From contig CABZES010000001.1 of the NCBI GenBank assembly GCA_902524805.1, forward strand, positions 62,001 through 126,000: 64,000 bases of DNA, read 5' to 3'. This DNA is from an uncultured SAR86 cluster bacterium. Lineage in GTDB: Bacteria; Pseudomonadota; Gammaproteobacteria; Magnimaribacterales; AG-339-G14. Under the pieces are notes generated by a model that saw nothing but the letters and a program-made list of their open reading frames with translations, made no database searches and was not told the origin of the DNA. A program made the position numbers and the translations under genes. Positions 3,535 to 58,175 of this stretch are shown one piece after another (positions within the stretch are counted from its first letter, which is position 1; every line of letters starts with the position of its first letter).

Positions 3535-3542
3535 AGGAGAGA
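3535..3542 (+). promoter_or_regulatory. ribosome binding site AGGAGAGA of the secreted protein gene
   Basis: AGGAGAGA lies three bases before the ATG at 3546. The same octamer precedes the other secreted unknown gene (49904-49911, minus), and GGAGAGA precedes the gene at 57198. All are complementary to the CU-rich loop of the hairpin at 8503-8542. Confidence 0.6.
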
Positions 3543-3545
3543 AAA

Positions 3546-4232
3546 ATGAAAAAAATATTATTAACTTTAATAGCATTCAGTGGACTAAGCTTTGCTGAGG
3601 ATACTTATTATGCTTACTACGGAATCGCTACAAGCAATCCTGCGGCAGTGGTTGCGGCAATGGATAAATTTAGCGCTTCTGAATGCGGCCAAAAAAGCCC
3701 AAGCTCAGTTGCGTTGATGAATGAAACATTTAACGGTGCTGAGACATCAACTCACACCTTTGTAGTAACTTACGATGACGCTAAAGTATTGAATGATTCA
3801 CTTGCAATCGTTAGTGCTTGCCCTGAAGCGGCAACTTTTTTATCAGAAATGGCTGCTGTTTCAGTTCCGACGGAACAAACTTTAGTTAAAGCAGTTTACG
3901 AAAGAGGTGATTGGACACAAGATTCAGCCTTTTTAGTATTCGAAATGAATATTAAAAATGAAGCAGCCTATTTTGATGCTTATAAAACCTTTACTGACGC
4001 TTTAGTCGAAAAAGGTCAGATCACAAGTTCATATGGTTTAGAAAGAGTAGTTGCAGGAACAGATTACTCTCATTTTGCTTTTATTGGCGCTAAAGACATG
4101 ACTGAATTGATGGAGTCTATGGATTTGTTGACCATGGAAAATCCAGACTTTGCCAAATTTCAAAATGCAGTTCGAAGAAATAGAACTTTAGTTAGAAGAG
4201 GGATTGTTAATCCGGTTAAAGGTTGGGAATAA
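3546..4232 (+). CDS. secreted protein of unknown function
   Basis: The first 17 residues (MKKILLTLIAFSGLSFA) are a typical signal peptide with cleavage before EDTYYAYYG, so the 211-residue mature protein is periplasmic or secreted. It seems built of two similar-sized halves (about 18-110 and 111-228), each with alternating strand-like and helix-like stretches that suggest ferredoxin-like folds. That is inference. The first half carries the only cysteines, Cys47 (SECG) and Cys92 (SACP), able to form one disulfide. No known motif or active site was recognised. It has a strong ribosome site and its own terminator, which suggests good expression. A protein of related design is at 49116-49901. Confidence 0.8.
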   Translation: MKKILLTLIAFSGLSFAEDTYYAYYGIATSNPAAVVAAMDKFSASECGQKSPSSVALMNETFNGAETSTHTFVVTYDDAKVLNDSLAIVSACPEAATFLSEMAAVSVPTEQTLVKAVYERGDWTQDSAFLVFEMNIKNEAAYFDAYKTFTDALVEKGQITSSYGLERVVAGTDYSHFAFIGAKDMTELMESMDLLTMENPDFAKFQNAVRRNRTLVRRGIVNPVKGWE

Positions 4233-5689: not shown

Positions 5690-8431
5690 ATGGCCAAACC
5701 AGAAAGCACTTCAGATAATGACTCCGTAATTTTGGTGGATGGGTCGTCTTATATATATCGGGCCTATCACGCGTTGCCGCCACTTTCGACTTCAACCGGT
5801 CAGCCAACTGGAGCAGTGAGAGGCGTAACCACTATGGTGATGCGAATTTTAGAAGATCATCCGGATAGTCCAGTGGGCATGATTTTTGATGCGAAAGGCA
5901 GCACATTTCGACACGACATGTACAATCAATACAAAGCTAACCGACCGCCGATGCCAGACGATTTACGTCCACAGATTCAACCTATTTATGATATCTGCGA
6001 AGCTTTAGGCTTGAAGATTTTTGTTGTTGATAATGTTGAGGCGGATGATGTGATTGGTACTTTGGCCACTCAAGCCGAAGCGCAAGGTATCAAGACTGTC
6101 GTTTCAACTGGCGATAAAGACCTTGCCCAATTGGTTACTAAAAATATTCGCTTAGTTAATACCATGAGCAATGAAGTCTTAGATGAAGCTGGCGTCATGA
6201 AAAAATTTGGCGTCAAACCAAACCAAATCATTGACTATTTAGCATTGGTTGGCGATACCTCAGATAACATTCCGGGTGTCCAAAAAGTTGGTCCTAAAAC
6301 AGCTGTGAACTGGTTAACTAAATATGAAACCGTTGAGAATATTATTGCCAATGCCGACGAAATTACTGGAAAAGTTGGCGAATATCTTCGCGAAGGCATT
6401 GAGCAATTAAAACTCTCTCAACAACTCACCACTATTAAAAAGGATGTTGAATTGGATTTTGGTATCAATGATTTAAAGCTAGAAAAAAGAGATACCGATA
6501 AACTACACAAACTTTTCACTGATTTAGAATTTAAAACTCTTATTAAAAGCGCTACTACAAAAGAGAAAACCAAGACAACAAAAAAAGAATACGTCGCGCA
6601 ATCAGCAGAACCACAAACGCCCCCAAAAGCGGTCAATTCAAAGTATCAATGCATTTTAACGGAGAAAGACCTAGATGTTTTAATAAAAAAATTGTCGAAG
6701 GCAAAGATAATAGCCCTAGATACTGAAACCGATAGTCTCGATTTTACTGTAGCTAATTTGGTCGGCATCTCGGTTTCGGCTAAAGCCGGTGAAGCAGCTT
6801 ATATTCCAATCCAGCATGATTACGAAGGCGCGCCCAAACAACTCTCTAAAAAAGTGGTAATTGAAAAATTAAAACCACTCCTTGAAAAAGTACCAGTGGT
6901 TGGCCAACATATAAAATTTGACCGCAATGTTTTGGTTCAACACGGACTGGAATTAAACAACATTGGTAGCGACAGTATGCTGATGTCTTATGTGCTTGAT
7001 TCAACCGCAACTAGACATAATTTAGATGCAATGGCGAAGTTTTATTTGAATTATGAGACCACTACCTATGAGGAAGTTGCTGGTAAGGGAGTCAAACAAA
7101 TAACATTCAATCAAGTGAATTTAGAAAGCGGTAGTCATTATGCTGCGGAAGATGCCGATATAACACTTCGCTGTTATGAATTGCTAAAAGAAAAACTTTC
7201 CCAAAAACCAGAGTTAGAAAAAGTACTTTCTGAAATTGATTTGCCTATGATTAAGGTTTTATCAGAAGTCGAACAAAATGGGGCTTTGATTGATCCTGAA
7301 GTTTTGAGAATTCAATCCAATAATTTAGGTCAACGCATTAGTGGCTTGGAAGAAAAAGCCTTTAGTGAAGCCGGAAAAGAATTCAATTTGGCGTCTACTA
7401 AGGATTTAAGAGAAATCTTTTTTGAAGAAATGAATATGCCGGTGATGAAAAAAACGCCTGGTGGTCAGCCCTCTACCGACGAATCGGTACTGCAAGATTT
7501 AGCCAGAGATTATGAGCTGCCTAAGATTTTGTTAGAACATAGAACCTTGGCAAAATTAAAAAATACCTATACTGATAGCTTACCTGAACAGATCTCGCCA
7601 ACTACAGGACGAATTCATACATCTTATTTACAAGCGGTGACCACAACCGGAAGACTGTCTTCAGCAGATCCTAACTTGCAGAATATTCCAATCAAAACTG
7701 AAGAGGGGCGCATGATTCGTAATGCTTTTGTTGCACCAAAAGGTCAAAAATTATTATCGATTGATTATTCTCAAATTGAATTAAGAATCATGGCACACCT
7801 TTCTAAGGACAAAGGTATGATCTCGGCATTTCAAAACGGCGAAGATATTCACTCTGCAACGGCTACAGAGGTTTTTGGCAATCCAGGTGAGGCTGCTTCT
7901 GAAGAAGATAGGCGCAGTGCTAAAGCCATCAACTTTGGTCTAATCTATGGCATGTCTGCTTTTGGTTTAGGCAAAGCTCTGGGTATTCCAAGAAATATGG
8001 CTCAAGAGTATATTGATTCTTATTTTGCTAAATATCCAGGCGTTAAACTTTATATGGAACAAACCAAAGAAATAGCTAGAGAAAAAGGCTTCGTTGAAAC
8101 CCTATTTGGTAGAAGACTTTATTTACCTGGCATTCATAGCGGTCGCACAAGGCAAGCAGCAGAACGAGCAGCAATTAATGCGCCAATGCAGGGTACGGCA
8201 GCGGATATTATGAAAATTGCTATGATTAATATCCAAGATTGGTTAGAAAAAGAAAAAGCTCAGGCAAAAATGATCCTGCAAGTCCATGACGAGGTTATTC
8301 TAGAAGTTGCAAGCAAAGATGCTGATTCCATAGCGACAAAAATATCAGAAATTATGTCTCAAGCAGTTCAATTGAGCGTGCCTTTGGAAGTCGAAAGCGG
8401 GATTGCCGATAATTGGGGCGAAGCACACTGA
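5690..8431 (+). CDS. polA: DNA polymerase I
   Basis: At 913 residues it is full length with three domains. The 5' nuclease covers about 1-300 (VDGSSYIYRAYHAL, VEADDVIGTLA, GDKDLAQLV, GDTSDNIPGV). The 3'-5' proofreading domain covers about 320-510 and keeps its acidic residues (LDTETD near 343, GQHIKFDRNVL, YAAEDADIT). The family A polymerase follows, with motif A DYSQIELRIMAHLS near 690, the O-helix RRSAKAINFGLIYG near 740 and motif C VHDEV near 864. It should serve Okazaki fragment processing and excision repair. The start at 5690 lacks a Shine-Dalgarno sequence. Order dsbB / polA / hairpin region / engB matches gammaproteobacterial polA-spf-yihA. Confidence 0.98.
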   Translation: MAKPESTSDNDSVILVDGSSYIYRAYHALPPLSTSTGQPTGAVRGVTTMVMRILEDHPDSPVGMIFDAKGSTFRHDMYNQYKANRPPMPDDLRPQIQPIYDICEALGLKIFVVDNVEADDVIGTLATQAEAQGIKTVVSTGDKDLAQLVTKNIRLVNTMSNEVLDEAGVMKKFGVKPNQIIDYLALVGDTSDNIPGVQKVGPKTAVNWLTKYETVENIIANADEITGKVGEYLREGIEQLKLSQQLTTIKKDVELDFGINDLKLEKRDTDKLHKLFTDLEFKTLIKSATTKEKTKTTKKEYVAQSAEPQTPPKAVNSKYQCILTEKDLDVLIKKLSKAKIIALDTETDSLDFTVANLVGISVSAKAGEAAYIPIQHDYEGAPKQLSKKVVIEKLKPLLEKVPVVGQHIKFDRNVLVQHGLELNNIGSDSMLMSYVLDSTATRHNLDAMAKFYLNYETTTYEEVAGKGVKQITFNQVNLESGSHYAAEDADITLRCYELLKEKLSQKPELEKVLSEIDLPMIKVLSEVEQNGALIDPEVLRIQSNNLGQRISGLEEKAFSEAGKEFNLASTKDLREIFFEEMNMPVMKKTPGGQPSTDESVLQDLARDYELPKILLEHRTLAKLKNTYTDSLPEQISPTTGRIHTSYLQAVTTTGRLSSADPNLQNIPIKTEEGRMIRNAFVAPKGQKLLSIDYSQIELRIMAHLSKDKGMISAFQNGEDIHSATATEVFGNPGEAASEEDRRSAKAINFGLIYGMSAFGLGKALGIPRNMAQEYIDSYFAKYPGVKLYMEQTKEIAREKGFVETLFGRRLYLPGIHSGRTRQAAERAAINAPMQGTAADIMKIAMINIQDWLEKEKAQAKMILQVHDEVILEVASKDADSIATKISEIMSQAVQLSVPLEVESGIADNWGEAH

Positions 8432-8450
8432 TCAATGAACTTTTTTCTAT

Positions 8451-8542
8451 GGAGATATGTCTAAAAACATTCTCCTAAGAAAACTAAGGATTCTTCCTTA
8501 GAGCCCATTGATACTCTCTCTCCTCCTTTTTGATCAATGGGC
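8451..8542 (+). ncRNA. candidate small RNA at the spf (Spot 42 / ErsA) position, three hairpins
   Basis: Between polA and engB lie three consecutive perfect or near-perfect hairpins. Hairpin 1 is 8451-8460 with 8467-8475, one bulge. Hairpin 2 is CTAAGG/CCTTAG, 8484-8489 with 8496-8501. Hairpin 3 is GCCCATTGAT/ATCAATGGGC, 8503-8512 with 8533-8542. The 20-base loop of hairpin 3, read on plus, contains CTCTCTCTCCTCC, an anti-Shine-Dalgarno-like stretch. Enterobacterial Spot 42 and pseudomonad ErsA sit in this exact gene context and orientation. I see no plus-strand T-run terminator and no clear promoter. Part of the structure also serves as the engB terminator on minus, so the RNA is a hypothesis. 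Confidence 0.35.
8476..8501 (-). terminator. likely intrinsic terminator of engB
   Basis: Read on the minus strand, the stem CTAAGG-AAGAAT-CCTTAG is followed by TTTTCTTA. It comes 44 bases after the engB stop, with the longer 10-pair hairpin (8503-8542) in between. Confidence 0.6.
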
Positions 8543-8544
8543 GC

Positions 8545-9156
8545 TTAGGTGGATTCTACCCAAGATAAAATATACTTTGATAATTGATCAACTCCATCAT
8601 GAGTTCTAGCAGAAAATAGAAGCGGTTCGTTAAGCATTTCTAAATCACTCAATTCTTTTTTGCTTGCATACAAAACATTTAATCCTTTGCTACGGGATAA
8701 TTTATCGGCTTTGTTGAGTAACAATTGAACTGGAAGCTCATACTGACGGCACCAAGCCAAAAAATCCAAGTCAGTTTTTTGAAAAGGGTGCCTGATGTCC
8801 ATGATTAAAATGATGGCCCTCAGCGAATCTCTAGAATTCATATAACCAGTAATCTGTCTGCCCCAGTCTTTTTGCATTTTTTTTGATGCTTTGGCATAAC
8901 CGTAACCAGGCAAATCAACTAATTTATAATTTGTATCGTTATTAATGCTAAAAAAATTTATGGATTGAGTTCTACCTGGCGTATTCGATGTTTTGGCTAA
9001 TTTTTTTGAGTTCGCTAATGCATTAATGATGCTTGATTTCCCCGAGTTTGAGCGACCACAAATTGCCACTTCGTGGCCAAAATCTTCAGGATAAAGCTTG
9101 GCTTCAGGACAGGCTGATAAAAATTCTATATTCAAATAACTACTTTTTCTATTCAT
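8545..9156 (-). CDS. engB: ribosome biogenesis GTPase EngB (YihA/YsxC)
   Basis: EngB is an essential GTPase in assembly of the large ribosomal subunit. The 203 residues carry the G motifs in order: GRSNSGKS (34-41), the TPGRTQSINFF switch block (59-69), DLPGYG (81-86) and NKADK near 147, with SAR near the end as the G5 element. Length fits the family. Its place opposite polA is the gammaproteobacterial arrangement. The 3' end is followed by a hairpin with a purine-rich loop and then a terminator. Confidence 0.97.
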   Translation of the reverse strand: MNRKSSYLNIEFLSACPEAKLYPEDFGHEVAICGRSNSGKSSIINALANSKKLAKTSNTPGRTQSINFFSINNDTNYKLVDLPGYGYAKASKKMQKDWGRQITGYMNSRDSLRAIILIMDIRHPFQKTDLDFLAWCRQYELPVQLLLNKADKLSRSKGLNVLYASKKELSDLEMLNEPLLFSARTHDGVDQLSKYILSWVEST

Positions 9157-49115: not shown

Positions 49116-49901
49116 TTATTTAACCCAAGGTTTCCCTAATCTAACTCTTTCCATCTGATAAACTCTAGGGCTATCACAGCTTACAATAGAACCATAGGTT
49201 TCTAATTGTTTTAGTGGACCACCATTATTTACAAATGTTTGAGTTTCACTTCCCCTTTGGCTCCAAGAAGAAGATATATCCATCATTTTAAAGTCAAAAG
49301 ACGCATCTTGAGGCATTCCGGCTGTTGGAAAAAGTCTAAAAACTGGGTCTTCTTTTCCTAGTTTTTTTAAAAAAGCGTTATATTTTGCATCTGCTTTCAA
49401 AAGATCGGCATACGTAACACCTTCATTAATTGAACAATCCGAAAAAGAAAAAATTTCAGAAGCTCTAGGACCTTCGTGTTTGTCTTTTCGGTTTTCTTCA
49501 TAAGTAGTAAGACTCGCAACAAAAGCATGACTATTGCACTTCCAAACAGAATTGAAATCTTCTGCTATTTCTGTACCGTTGTTGTAATAATTCTCTAAGC
49601 TCTTTCCCATCCCTTCAAAATTATTCCAAGCACCCATCCAGATAAGGGTATTTTCAAAATCAACATTGCTTGCTGCAATTGGCGTTAAAAGAAATGCTGT
49701 ATAAGAATTATCATTTGAACGATCGTTAAATTTGTTCCATTTTTCAATTACTTTATATAAATCAGCTTTGGTTTTTCCTGGTTGAAATTCACAATTTGAG
49801 TAAAATTCCATCGGCGTAACATTTGGTTGTTGCTGAGCAACTGAAATAGAAGAAATTAATAAGAGCATTATAGGTAATACAATTTTAAAAATATTTTTCA
49901 T
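49116..49901 (-). CDS. secreted protein of unknown function with an internal duplication
   Basis: A signal peptide (about 1-22, cut after VA-Q) precedes two repeats, about 31-130 and 149-250. Each starts with an aromatic-rich strand and cysteine (FYSNCEF, Cys37; FSFSDCSI, Cys156), then G-x-T-x-A-D-L-x-K, an Asn-Phe or Asn-Ala-Phe helix, a Trp-containing strand and a second cysteine (WKCNSHAF, Cys122; VSCDSPRV, Cys242). The cysteine spacing is 85 and 86 residues, so one disulfide per repeat is likely. I do not recognise the family. The ribosome site is AGGAGAGA, as in the other secreted unknown (3546), and it has its own terminator. Confidence 0.82.
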   Translation of the reverse strand: MKNIFKIVLPIMLLLISSISVAQQQPNVTPMEFYSNCEFQPGKTKADLYKVIEKWNKFNDRSNDNSYTAFLLTPIAASNVDFENTLIWMGAWNNFEGMGKSLENYYNNGTEIAEDFNSVWKCNSHAFVASLTTYEENRKDKHEGPRASEIFSFSDCSINEGVTYADLLKADAKYNAFLKKLGKEDPVFRLFPTAGMPQDASFDFKMMDISSSWSQRGSETQTFVNNGGPLKQLETYGSIVSCDSPRVYQMERVRLGKPWVK

Positions 49902-50041
49902 TTTCTCTCCTAAAAATATACCGTCCTAATAATTTAGAACAATTAAAAAGATTAGCACTTACGTTATTAAAAAAAAATACTTTAAAGCATATTTTTAACG
50001 ATAGTCTGTCGTATAAATTAGAAACCTCTCAAAGATAGAAA

Positions 50042-57106: not shown

Positions 57107-57197
57107 TTTTTTGTTAAGTAGTTTGTAACATTTATTGCAACCCTCGTCATTATAGATATAGTAATGTACTAATTAATTTTTTTTGGAGAGATAAAAG

Positions 57198-58175
57198 ATG
57201 ATCAAAACAAAAATCACAGAAATGTTTGGGATACAACATCCAATCATTCAAGGAGGAATGCATTATGTAGGTTTTGCCGAAATGGCATCTGCAGTTGCTA
57301 ACGCTGGGGGCTTGGGAATAATTACTGGTCTTACTCAAAAGACACCGGAAGACTTAGCTAAAGAGATAGCTAAATGTCATGAAATGACTGATAAACCTTT
57401 TGGAGTTAACTTAACCTTTTTACCAGGCTTTCAAGAGCCTGACTATCCTGGTTACATTCAAGCTATTGTTGAAGGTGGAATTAAAATCGTTGAAACTGCT
57501 GGAAGAAGCCCAGAAGCATATATGCCAGATTTGAAAGGCGCAGGAATTAAAGTGATTCACAAATGTACTTCTGTAAGACATTCACTCAAAGCAGAAAAAA
57601 TAGGTTGTGATGCTGTAAGTGTCGATGGATTTGAATGTGGAGGTCATCCTGGCGAAGACGATATCCCCAATATGATTCTTCTTCCAAGGGCAGCAGAAGA
57701 GCTATCTATTCCATTCGTAGCTTCAGGCGGCATGGGTAATGGGCAGCAGCTTGCAGCTGCATTATCGATGGGCGCAGATGGAATAAATATGGGCACCAGA
57801 TTTATTGCTACTAAAGAAGCTCCAGTTCATCAGAATGTAAAAGACGCGCTAGTTGCCGCTTCGGAATTAGATACTGAACTAATTATGAGGCCGTTAAGAA
57901 ATACAGAAAGAGTATTATCCAATGCAGCAGTTTCTAGTATTTTAGAAAAAGAAAAAGAGCTTGGTGACAATATCCAAATAACAGATATCTTGGATGAAGT
58001 AGCCGGGGTTTATCCCAAAATTATGCAGGAAGGAACTATGGAAGCTGGTGCTTGGAGTTGCGGAATGGTTGCAGGTTTAATCCATGATGTGCCAACTTGT
58101 TCCGAGTTAGTAGAAAGAATAGTTTCTGATGCAGAAGAGATAATAAAAACTAGACTTTCTAAGTTTGTTGCTTAA
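57198..58175 (+). CDS. nitronate monooxygenase (2-nitropropane dioxygenase family)
   Basis: An FMN TIM barrel of 325 residues: IQHPIIQGGMHYVGFAEMASAVANAGGLGIITG in part, then KPFGVNLTF, CDAVSVDGFECGGHPGEDD with the family Gly-His-Pro-Gly-Glu-Asp and VASGGMGNGQQLAAALSMGADGINMGTRF. It resembles class II nitronate monooxygenases and enoyl-ACP reductase FabK-like proteins; FabK cannot be excluded. Good ribosome site (GGAGAGA). It is followed after three bases by a NUDIX gene. Confidence 0.88.
   Translation: MIKTKITEMFGIQHPIIQGGMHYVGFAEMASAVANAGGLGIITGLTQKTPEDLAKEIAKCHEMTDKPFGVNLTFLPGFQEPDYPGYIQAIVEGGIKIVETAGRSPEAYMPDLKGAGIKVIHKCTSVRHSLKAEKIGCDAVSVDGFECGGHPGEDDIPNMILLPRAAEELSIPFVASGGMGNGQQLAAALSMGADGINMGTRFIATKEAPVHQNVKDALVAASELDTELIMRPLRNTERVLSNAAVSSILEKEKELGDNIQITDILDEVAGVYPKIMQEGTMEAGAWSCGMVAGLIHDVPTCSELVERIVSDAEEIIKTRLSKFVA

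Follow-up and report, generated by a model that had tools for sequence, protein, structure and literature searches.

The window, a stretch of 64,000 nucleotides, derives from the genome of an uncultured SAR86 gammaproteobacterium, 1.05 Mb in size (31 contigs, ∼80% complete); the closest named relatives of its polA are SAR86 assemblies from single cells and metagenomes. Two convergent genes flank the locus studied here: polA on the plus strand, with its stop at 8431, and engB on the minus strand, with its stop at 8545, leaving a gap of 113 bases. In P. aeruginosa, the gene encoding the small RNA ErsA lies in the polA-engB intergenic region (PMC8575079). The original prediction had placed a small RNA in the SAR86 gap, at the same locus and in the same orientation as ersA, a placement borne out by the gene coordinates. 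The plus strand from 8432 to 8560 folds with −40 kcal/mol compared with −24 kcal/mol for shuffled sequences (z = −4.8; 0 of 200 shuffles as good), and the minus strand of the gap region gives z = −3.4. An Rfam scan of the 64-kb window yielded no match, and a scan of the locus at E 10 returned chance matches only (mir-2366, PreQ1); the Spot 42 model found no match in the window at its gathering score, nor any at E 10.

Comparison was made with other genera of the same SAR86 family (f1), referred to as g2, g3, and g4, the genus of the window being g1. A small-RNA gene is very probably present at the locus, with an anatomy differing from the one first proposed. Its features are as follows.

8437 to 8442, plus strand: GAACTT, −35 box of a predicted sigma-E/AlgU-type (ECF) promoter; GAACTTTT is invariant in 18 of 18 distinct sequences.
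8459 to 8464, plus strand: GTCTAA, −10 box (TCTAA at 8460 to 8464), invariant in the 18 distinct sequences from three genera.
8468 to 8478, plus strand: predicted 5′ end and 5′ seed, the start (∼8468 to 8472) being placed by its distance from the −10 box.
8484 to 8501, plus strand: hairpin A, CTAAGGA-TTCT-TCCTTAG, which folds in g1, g2, and g3 with differing loops.
8503 to 8542, plus strand: hairpin B, with a 10-bp stem GCCCATTGAT/ATCAATGGGC and a 20-base C/U-rich loop at 8513 to 8532.
8544 to 8549, plus strand: CTTAGG arm, tentatively predicted to pair with CCTAAG at 8474 to 8479 and so to close a three-way junction.

The spacing and sequence of the two boxes fit the published AlgU/RpoE consensus, GAACTT-N16/17-TC..A. 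The AlgU consensus is given as GAACTT-N16/17-TCtgA (PMC10651043), and GAACTT-16/17-TCCAAA precedes rpoE in Shewanella, Pseudomonas, and E. coli (PMC4336711). When the gaps of relatives are aligned, GAACTTTT and GTCTAAA appear as invariant blocks flanking a spacer of variable sequence, which measures 17 bases from GAACTT to TCTAA in the window and 16 in g2 and g3; the GAACTTTT block is also present in g4. Contrary to the initial impression that no plus-strand promoter is clear, a sigma-E-type promoter with invariant boxes is thus predicted, and it is because of this type that a sigma-70 scan is blind to it. Three hairpins had been described in a row, of which the second and third (8484 to 8501 and 8503 to 8542) stand. 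The first (8451 to 8475), on the other hand, coincides with the core promoter and falls outside the RNA, since its left arm is the promoter spacer, which varies from species to species in contrast to the conserved −35 and −10 boxes.

The genome carries rpoE (best match to TIGR02939 at 213 bits, under the NCBI cut-off of 236, with Sigma70_r2 and r4_2 present), an anti-sigma factor gene rseA (RseA_N, E 1e-4, just below the Pfam cut-off), and a gene for a DegP-like protease (degP), consecutively arranged as an rpoE-rseA-degP operon. Ahead of rpoE lies TGAACTTATGCACAATGCACCTGTCAAA (GAACTT-N15-GTCAAA), the same signature as that of the locus promoter. It is kept in other g1 and g2 genomes, with a close variant, TGAACTTGTGGACAATACGCATGTCTA, in g3 and AAACTT..GTCAAA in g4. 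Among nine genome matches to GAACTTN14-16GTCWNA, only the polA-engB site and the rpoE site are intergenic and ahead of a transcription unit. The narrower pattern GAACTTN16-17GTCWAA matches the polA-engB site only, missing rpoE because the rpoE spacer is one base shorter. A broad pattern, GAACTT-N15-18-TCTAA, was discarded as unspecific (14 matches versus 10 in a reversed control). Judged by its promoter, the small-RNA gene seems to be activated by the envelope-stress sigma factor.

The RNA proper is predicted to extend from ∼8468 to between 8542 and 8549, about 75 to 82 nt, with a start reading about CAUUCUCCUAAG. Every g1 to g3 sequence contains the 9-mer TTCTCCTAA (8470 to 8478), which lies outside any stem, while the loop and ends of hairpin A vary across these genera. 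On the minus strand, the complement of hairpin A is followed by TTTTC, producing a terminator-like scan match, and hairpin A may double as an engB terminator in g1. As originally described, the 20-base loop of hairpin B carries CTCTCTCTCCTCC. At the 3′ end, conservation between g1 and g2 reaches as far as CTTAGG, after which the g2 sequence diverges; the CCUAAG/CUUAGG pairing displays no covariation and is broken in one g2 genome. No U-tract is visible after hairpin B in g1 and g2, which counts against the small-RNA reading. The earlier remark that there is no clear T-run accordingly holds for the window's genus but not for the sister genus g4, where GAACTT-N15-GTCATA occurs at the same position with a segment ACUCUCCUAUU, followed by a different hairpin and U7, which together make a strong terminator.

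Covariation was evaluated with 18 distinct sequences that represent the three SAR86 genera g1 to g3. The RNAalifold consensus from an initial MAFFT alignment was poor owing to a gap in the 3′ arm, and trimming of the 3′ ends restored the register. All ten pairs of stem B are kept in all sequences (180 of 180 cells are standard pairs), and five of the ten show compensatory changes, affecting 34 cells compared with a shuffled mean of 11. When the partner was moved by 1 to 3 columns, pairing fell to 18 to 52%. Independent covariation events are few, as most of the changes reflect the difference between g1/g2 and g3, plus one change within g3. The loop remains C/U-rich throughout the 18 sequences, so that the combination of a covarying stem and a conserved loop, suggested as a check at the outset, is what the alignment displays, and the refuting outcome named there, a lack of conservation in loop and stems, did not arise.

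The RNA chaperones Hfq (PF17209) and ProQ (PF04352) were each found in 0 of 41 SAR86 genomes, with positive E. coli controls; 26 of the 41 are at least 90% complete and several consist of a single contig. It seems that the SAR86 order has dispensed with both of these general chaperones of small RNAs. Since Hfq is absent, any action of the SAR86 RNA must be Hfq-independent. The absence of a U-tract in g1 and g2 would fit an RNA freed from dependence on Hfq, though g4 still has a U-tract.

Three ribosome sites in the window had been matched to the loop of hairpin B, and their positions proved correct: AGGAGAGA occurs at 3535 to 3542 (plus strand) and 49911 to 49904 (minus strand), and GGAGAGA at 57185 to 57191 (plus strand), all just upstream of starts. 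The corresponding features are listed below.

3535 to 3542, plus strand: weak candidate target site of the secreted protein gene 3546 to 4232, by sequence match.
49904 to 49911, minus strand: candidate target site TTTAGGAGAGAAA of the secreted protein gene 49116 to 49901, where 5 of the 6 orthologues within the genus retain AGGAGAGA.
57185 to 57191, plus strand: weak candidate target site of the nitronate monooxygenase-like gene 57198 to 58175, by sequence match.

With real matches, these three genes are possible targets, but weak ones and not established. The GAGA extension, proposed to take the complementarity past the general 16S anti-Shine-Dalgarno match, persists at 49904 in the 5 of 6 orthologues, but most of the complementarity is to the Shine-Dalgarno core, and at 3535 the GAGA extension of AGGAGAGA is lost in close orthologues. 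By duplex energy with the 5′ seed, gene 49116 to 49901 leads the 63 window genes, and with the loop it comes second. About five ribosome regions of these 63 genes score among the top 1% of background against the 5′ seed, versus 0.6 expected; such enrichment is to be expected from any Shine-Dalgarno complement and is therefore no proof of targeting. Orthologue upstream regions and duplex energies for the 63 genes revealed no clean conserved target. Shine-Dalgarno sequences are sparse in this lineage, with GGAG at most 20 bases upstream of the start in only 9 of the 63 window genes, three of which have GGAGAGA. The exported unknowns 3546 to 4232 and 49116 to 49901 and a lipoprotein (L224) have the rare ribosome site GGAGAGAAAA in common; the product of 3546 to 4232 weakly matches DUF6854, and a single genome may carry as many as four of its relatives.

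Genome-wide, GGAGAGA-N2-9-ATG occurs 25 times compared with 8 in a reversed control, and ∼11 of the matches precede plausible genes, including the two secreted protein genes above and genes for a lipoprotein, an HflC-like protein, and a phosphomannomutase/phosphoglucomutase. The best PDB matches of the latter (1k35, 2fkf, and others; E 1e-139) mark it as a homologue of AlgC, the best known of ErsA's targets; we take 1k35 and 2fkf to be P. aeruginosa AlgC. The ribosome site of this AlgC-like gene reads AGGAGAGA in five of eight g1 genomes and AGGAGAAA or GGGACAAA in the rest, and AGGAGAGA is absent from it in g3 and g4. The site offers a lead but falls short of demonstrating a conserved circuit. 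Upstream of the same gene (L255, G000:C3:31660-31869), a CATTATAA block is strongly conserved in g1 to g3 and is possibly the gene's own promoter.

We consider it likely that the locus holds an independent plus-strand small-RNA gene with a sigma-E (RpoE)-type promoter, acting within the SAR86 envelope stress response through C/U segments that block Shine-Dalgarno sites. Under envelope stress, sigma-E would transcribe the RNA from the plus strand, exposing C/U-rich segments in the 5′ UUCUCCU and the hairpin loops. These would most likely pair directly with strong Shine-Dalgarno sequences (AGGAGA) in a restricted number of mRNAs, among them probably those for exported proteins, and the pairing would block translation, much as ErsA does at algC or sX13 on G-rich motifs, but in SAR86 without Hfq or ProQ.

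A sigma-E small RNA could also act otherwise, by titrating a protein or the ribosome as an anti-Shine-Dalgarno-like decoy, or as a metabolic regulator resembling Spot 42. The resemblance of the C/U segments to the 16S anti-Shine-Dalgarno sequence and the poor conservation of the target sites would suit such a role. We nevertheless regard it as unlikely, because the scarcity of GGAG near starts makes the matches a selective set, and because the C-rich loops of sX13, also encoded at the polA locus, repress specific mRNAs (PMC3771888).

The distribution of the RNA bears on whether it is a gene in its own right. A covariance model detected exactly one copy per genome in 28 g1 to g3 genomes, and the RNA is present in all 24 genomes of these genera in which polA was found. 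Elsewhere among 203 SAR86 genomes the model retrieved nothing convincing, and the other families are without the RNA at the model's sensitivity; a match in family f4 (E 9e-4) was marginal and not accepted as a copy outside f1. In g2 the RNA is kept although engB is absent, and the sequence after it differs from species to species (at one g2 locus, L012, a ceramidase-like ORF follows, as judged by eye). Likewise, in the g3 genome G027 a gene for a 271-aa dioxygenase-like protein (by eye; L021 2238-3053) separates the RNA from polA, putting 846 bases between them, yet both promoter and RNA are intact. Persistence without engB and past an inserted gene therefore indicates an independent unit, and a polA/engB terminator would not behave in this way. 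That the region is a bidirectional terminator or 3′ UTR between the convergent genes, yielding no separate RNA, is accordingly improbable: it would account for the short gap and for the likeness of hairpin A with TTTTC to an engB terminator, but not for the lack of a U-tract after hairpin B on either strand, the invariant ECF promoter, or the conserved 9-mer outside any stem. Very improbable is a sigma-E-driven transcript that continues into the engB 3′ end in antisense and regulates the GTPase gene in cis, for although hairpin B in g1 closes 2 bases short of the engB stop with no terminator visible and the CTTAGG arm overlaps that stop, g2 keeps the RNA and its structure with engB gone, and the strong terminator of g4 stops at the engB end.

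An independent sigma-E small RNA at this locus invites comparison with known systems. ErsA is controlled by the ECF sigma factor sigma-22/AlgU (PMC7565897, PMC8395346) and, with Hfq, represses algC by pairing at its ribosome site (PMC6321483). The SAR86 RNA occupies the same locus and orientation relative to polA (g2 keeping the polA side only), and has an AlgU-type promoter, GAACTT-N16/17-TCTAA, in common with its own rpoE, as well as C/U-rich putative pairing segments and an AlgC homologue in the genome. In contrast to ErsA, it is shorter and occurs without an Hfq family match. The likeness concerns locus, promoter class, and C/U segments; the Rfam scans gave no ErsA match.

In Xanthomonas, the sX13 gene lies downstream of polA, and its C-rich stem-loops act Hfq-independently on G-rich motifs near start codons; the RNA is 115 nt long, has three stem-loops with CCCC/CCCCC loops, and is confined to the Xanthomonadaceae (PMC3771888). 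The SAR86 RNA resembles it in its location at polA and in its C-rich loops on stable stems, but has two predicted hairpins with CUCUCUCC/CUCCCC segments rather than three with CCCC/CCCCC. Its predicted anatomy combines the promoter class and locus of ErsA with the C/U-rich loop presentation of sX13. As both Hfq and ProQ are absent, sX13 is the better mechanistic model.

Spot 42 (spf), found in E. coli and Vibrio, is Hfq-dependent and acts in carbon metabolism (PMC3771888). It shares the position after polA, but its Rfam model is unmatched in the window, and ErsA is the better fit because of the sigma-E-type promoter. The original assignment to a Spot 42/ErsA locus is strongly supported as regards a small RNA (ECF promoter, covarying stem, C/U loop, persistence), with Spot 42 fitting worse than ErsA. 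MicA, RybB, and MicL, the sigma-E small RNAs of E. coli, are similar in their sigma factor but differ in locus and sequence and depend on Hfq. In the E. coli sigma-E regulon, three small RNAs constitute a repressive arm acting on envelope genes (PMC12153292).

Outside SAR86, GAACTT-N14-17-GTC follows polA at a distance of no more than 260 bases at 7 of ∼75 other polA loci (L036 to L110), against an expectation of 0.33 derived from the remaining sequence of those loci. The seven loci (L038, L039, L046, L059, L069, L071, and L077) belong to two Endozoicomonas, a Chromatiales bacterium, an Ectothiorhodospiraceae bacterium, Glaciecola, Paraglaciecola, and Bermanella; since the two Endozoicomonas loci are related, at most six cases are independent. 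Several of the seven have C-rich stretches and U-tract terminators. These loci probably encode unrecognized ErsA-like small RNAs. Alteromonas polA loci presumably carry a Spot 42-like sequence instead.

In the open-access literature searched, no description of a SAR86 small RNA was found. The wider reading, which we judge about as likely as not, is that a chaperone-free sigma-E small RNA in genome-reduced SAR86 silences strong-Shine-Dalgarno mRNAs through its C/U loops, and represents one branch of an ancient polA-linked class that also comprises ErsA, sX13, and unrecognized RNAs of, among others, Endozoicomonas, Bermanella, and Glaciecola. The evolution of polA-locus small RNAs was explicitly left open by the authors of the sX13 study (PMC3771888), and the present finding would open it to study across ErsA, sX13, and Spot 42. 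SAR86 are abundant bacteria of the surface ocean, in which polA-linked small RNAs would now be tied to the sigma-E response, and a lineage without both major RNA chaperones would provide a natural test of how small RNAs act without Hfq.
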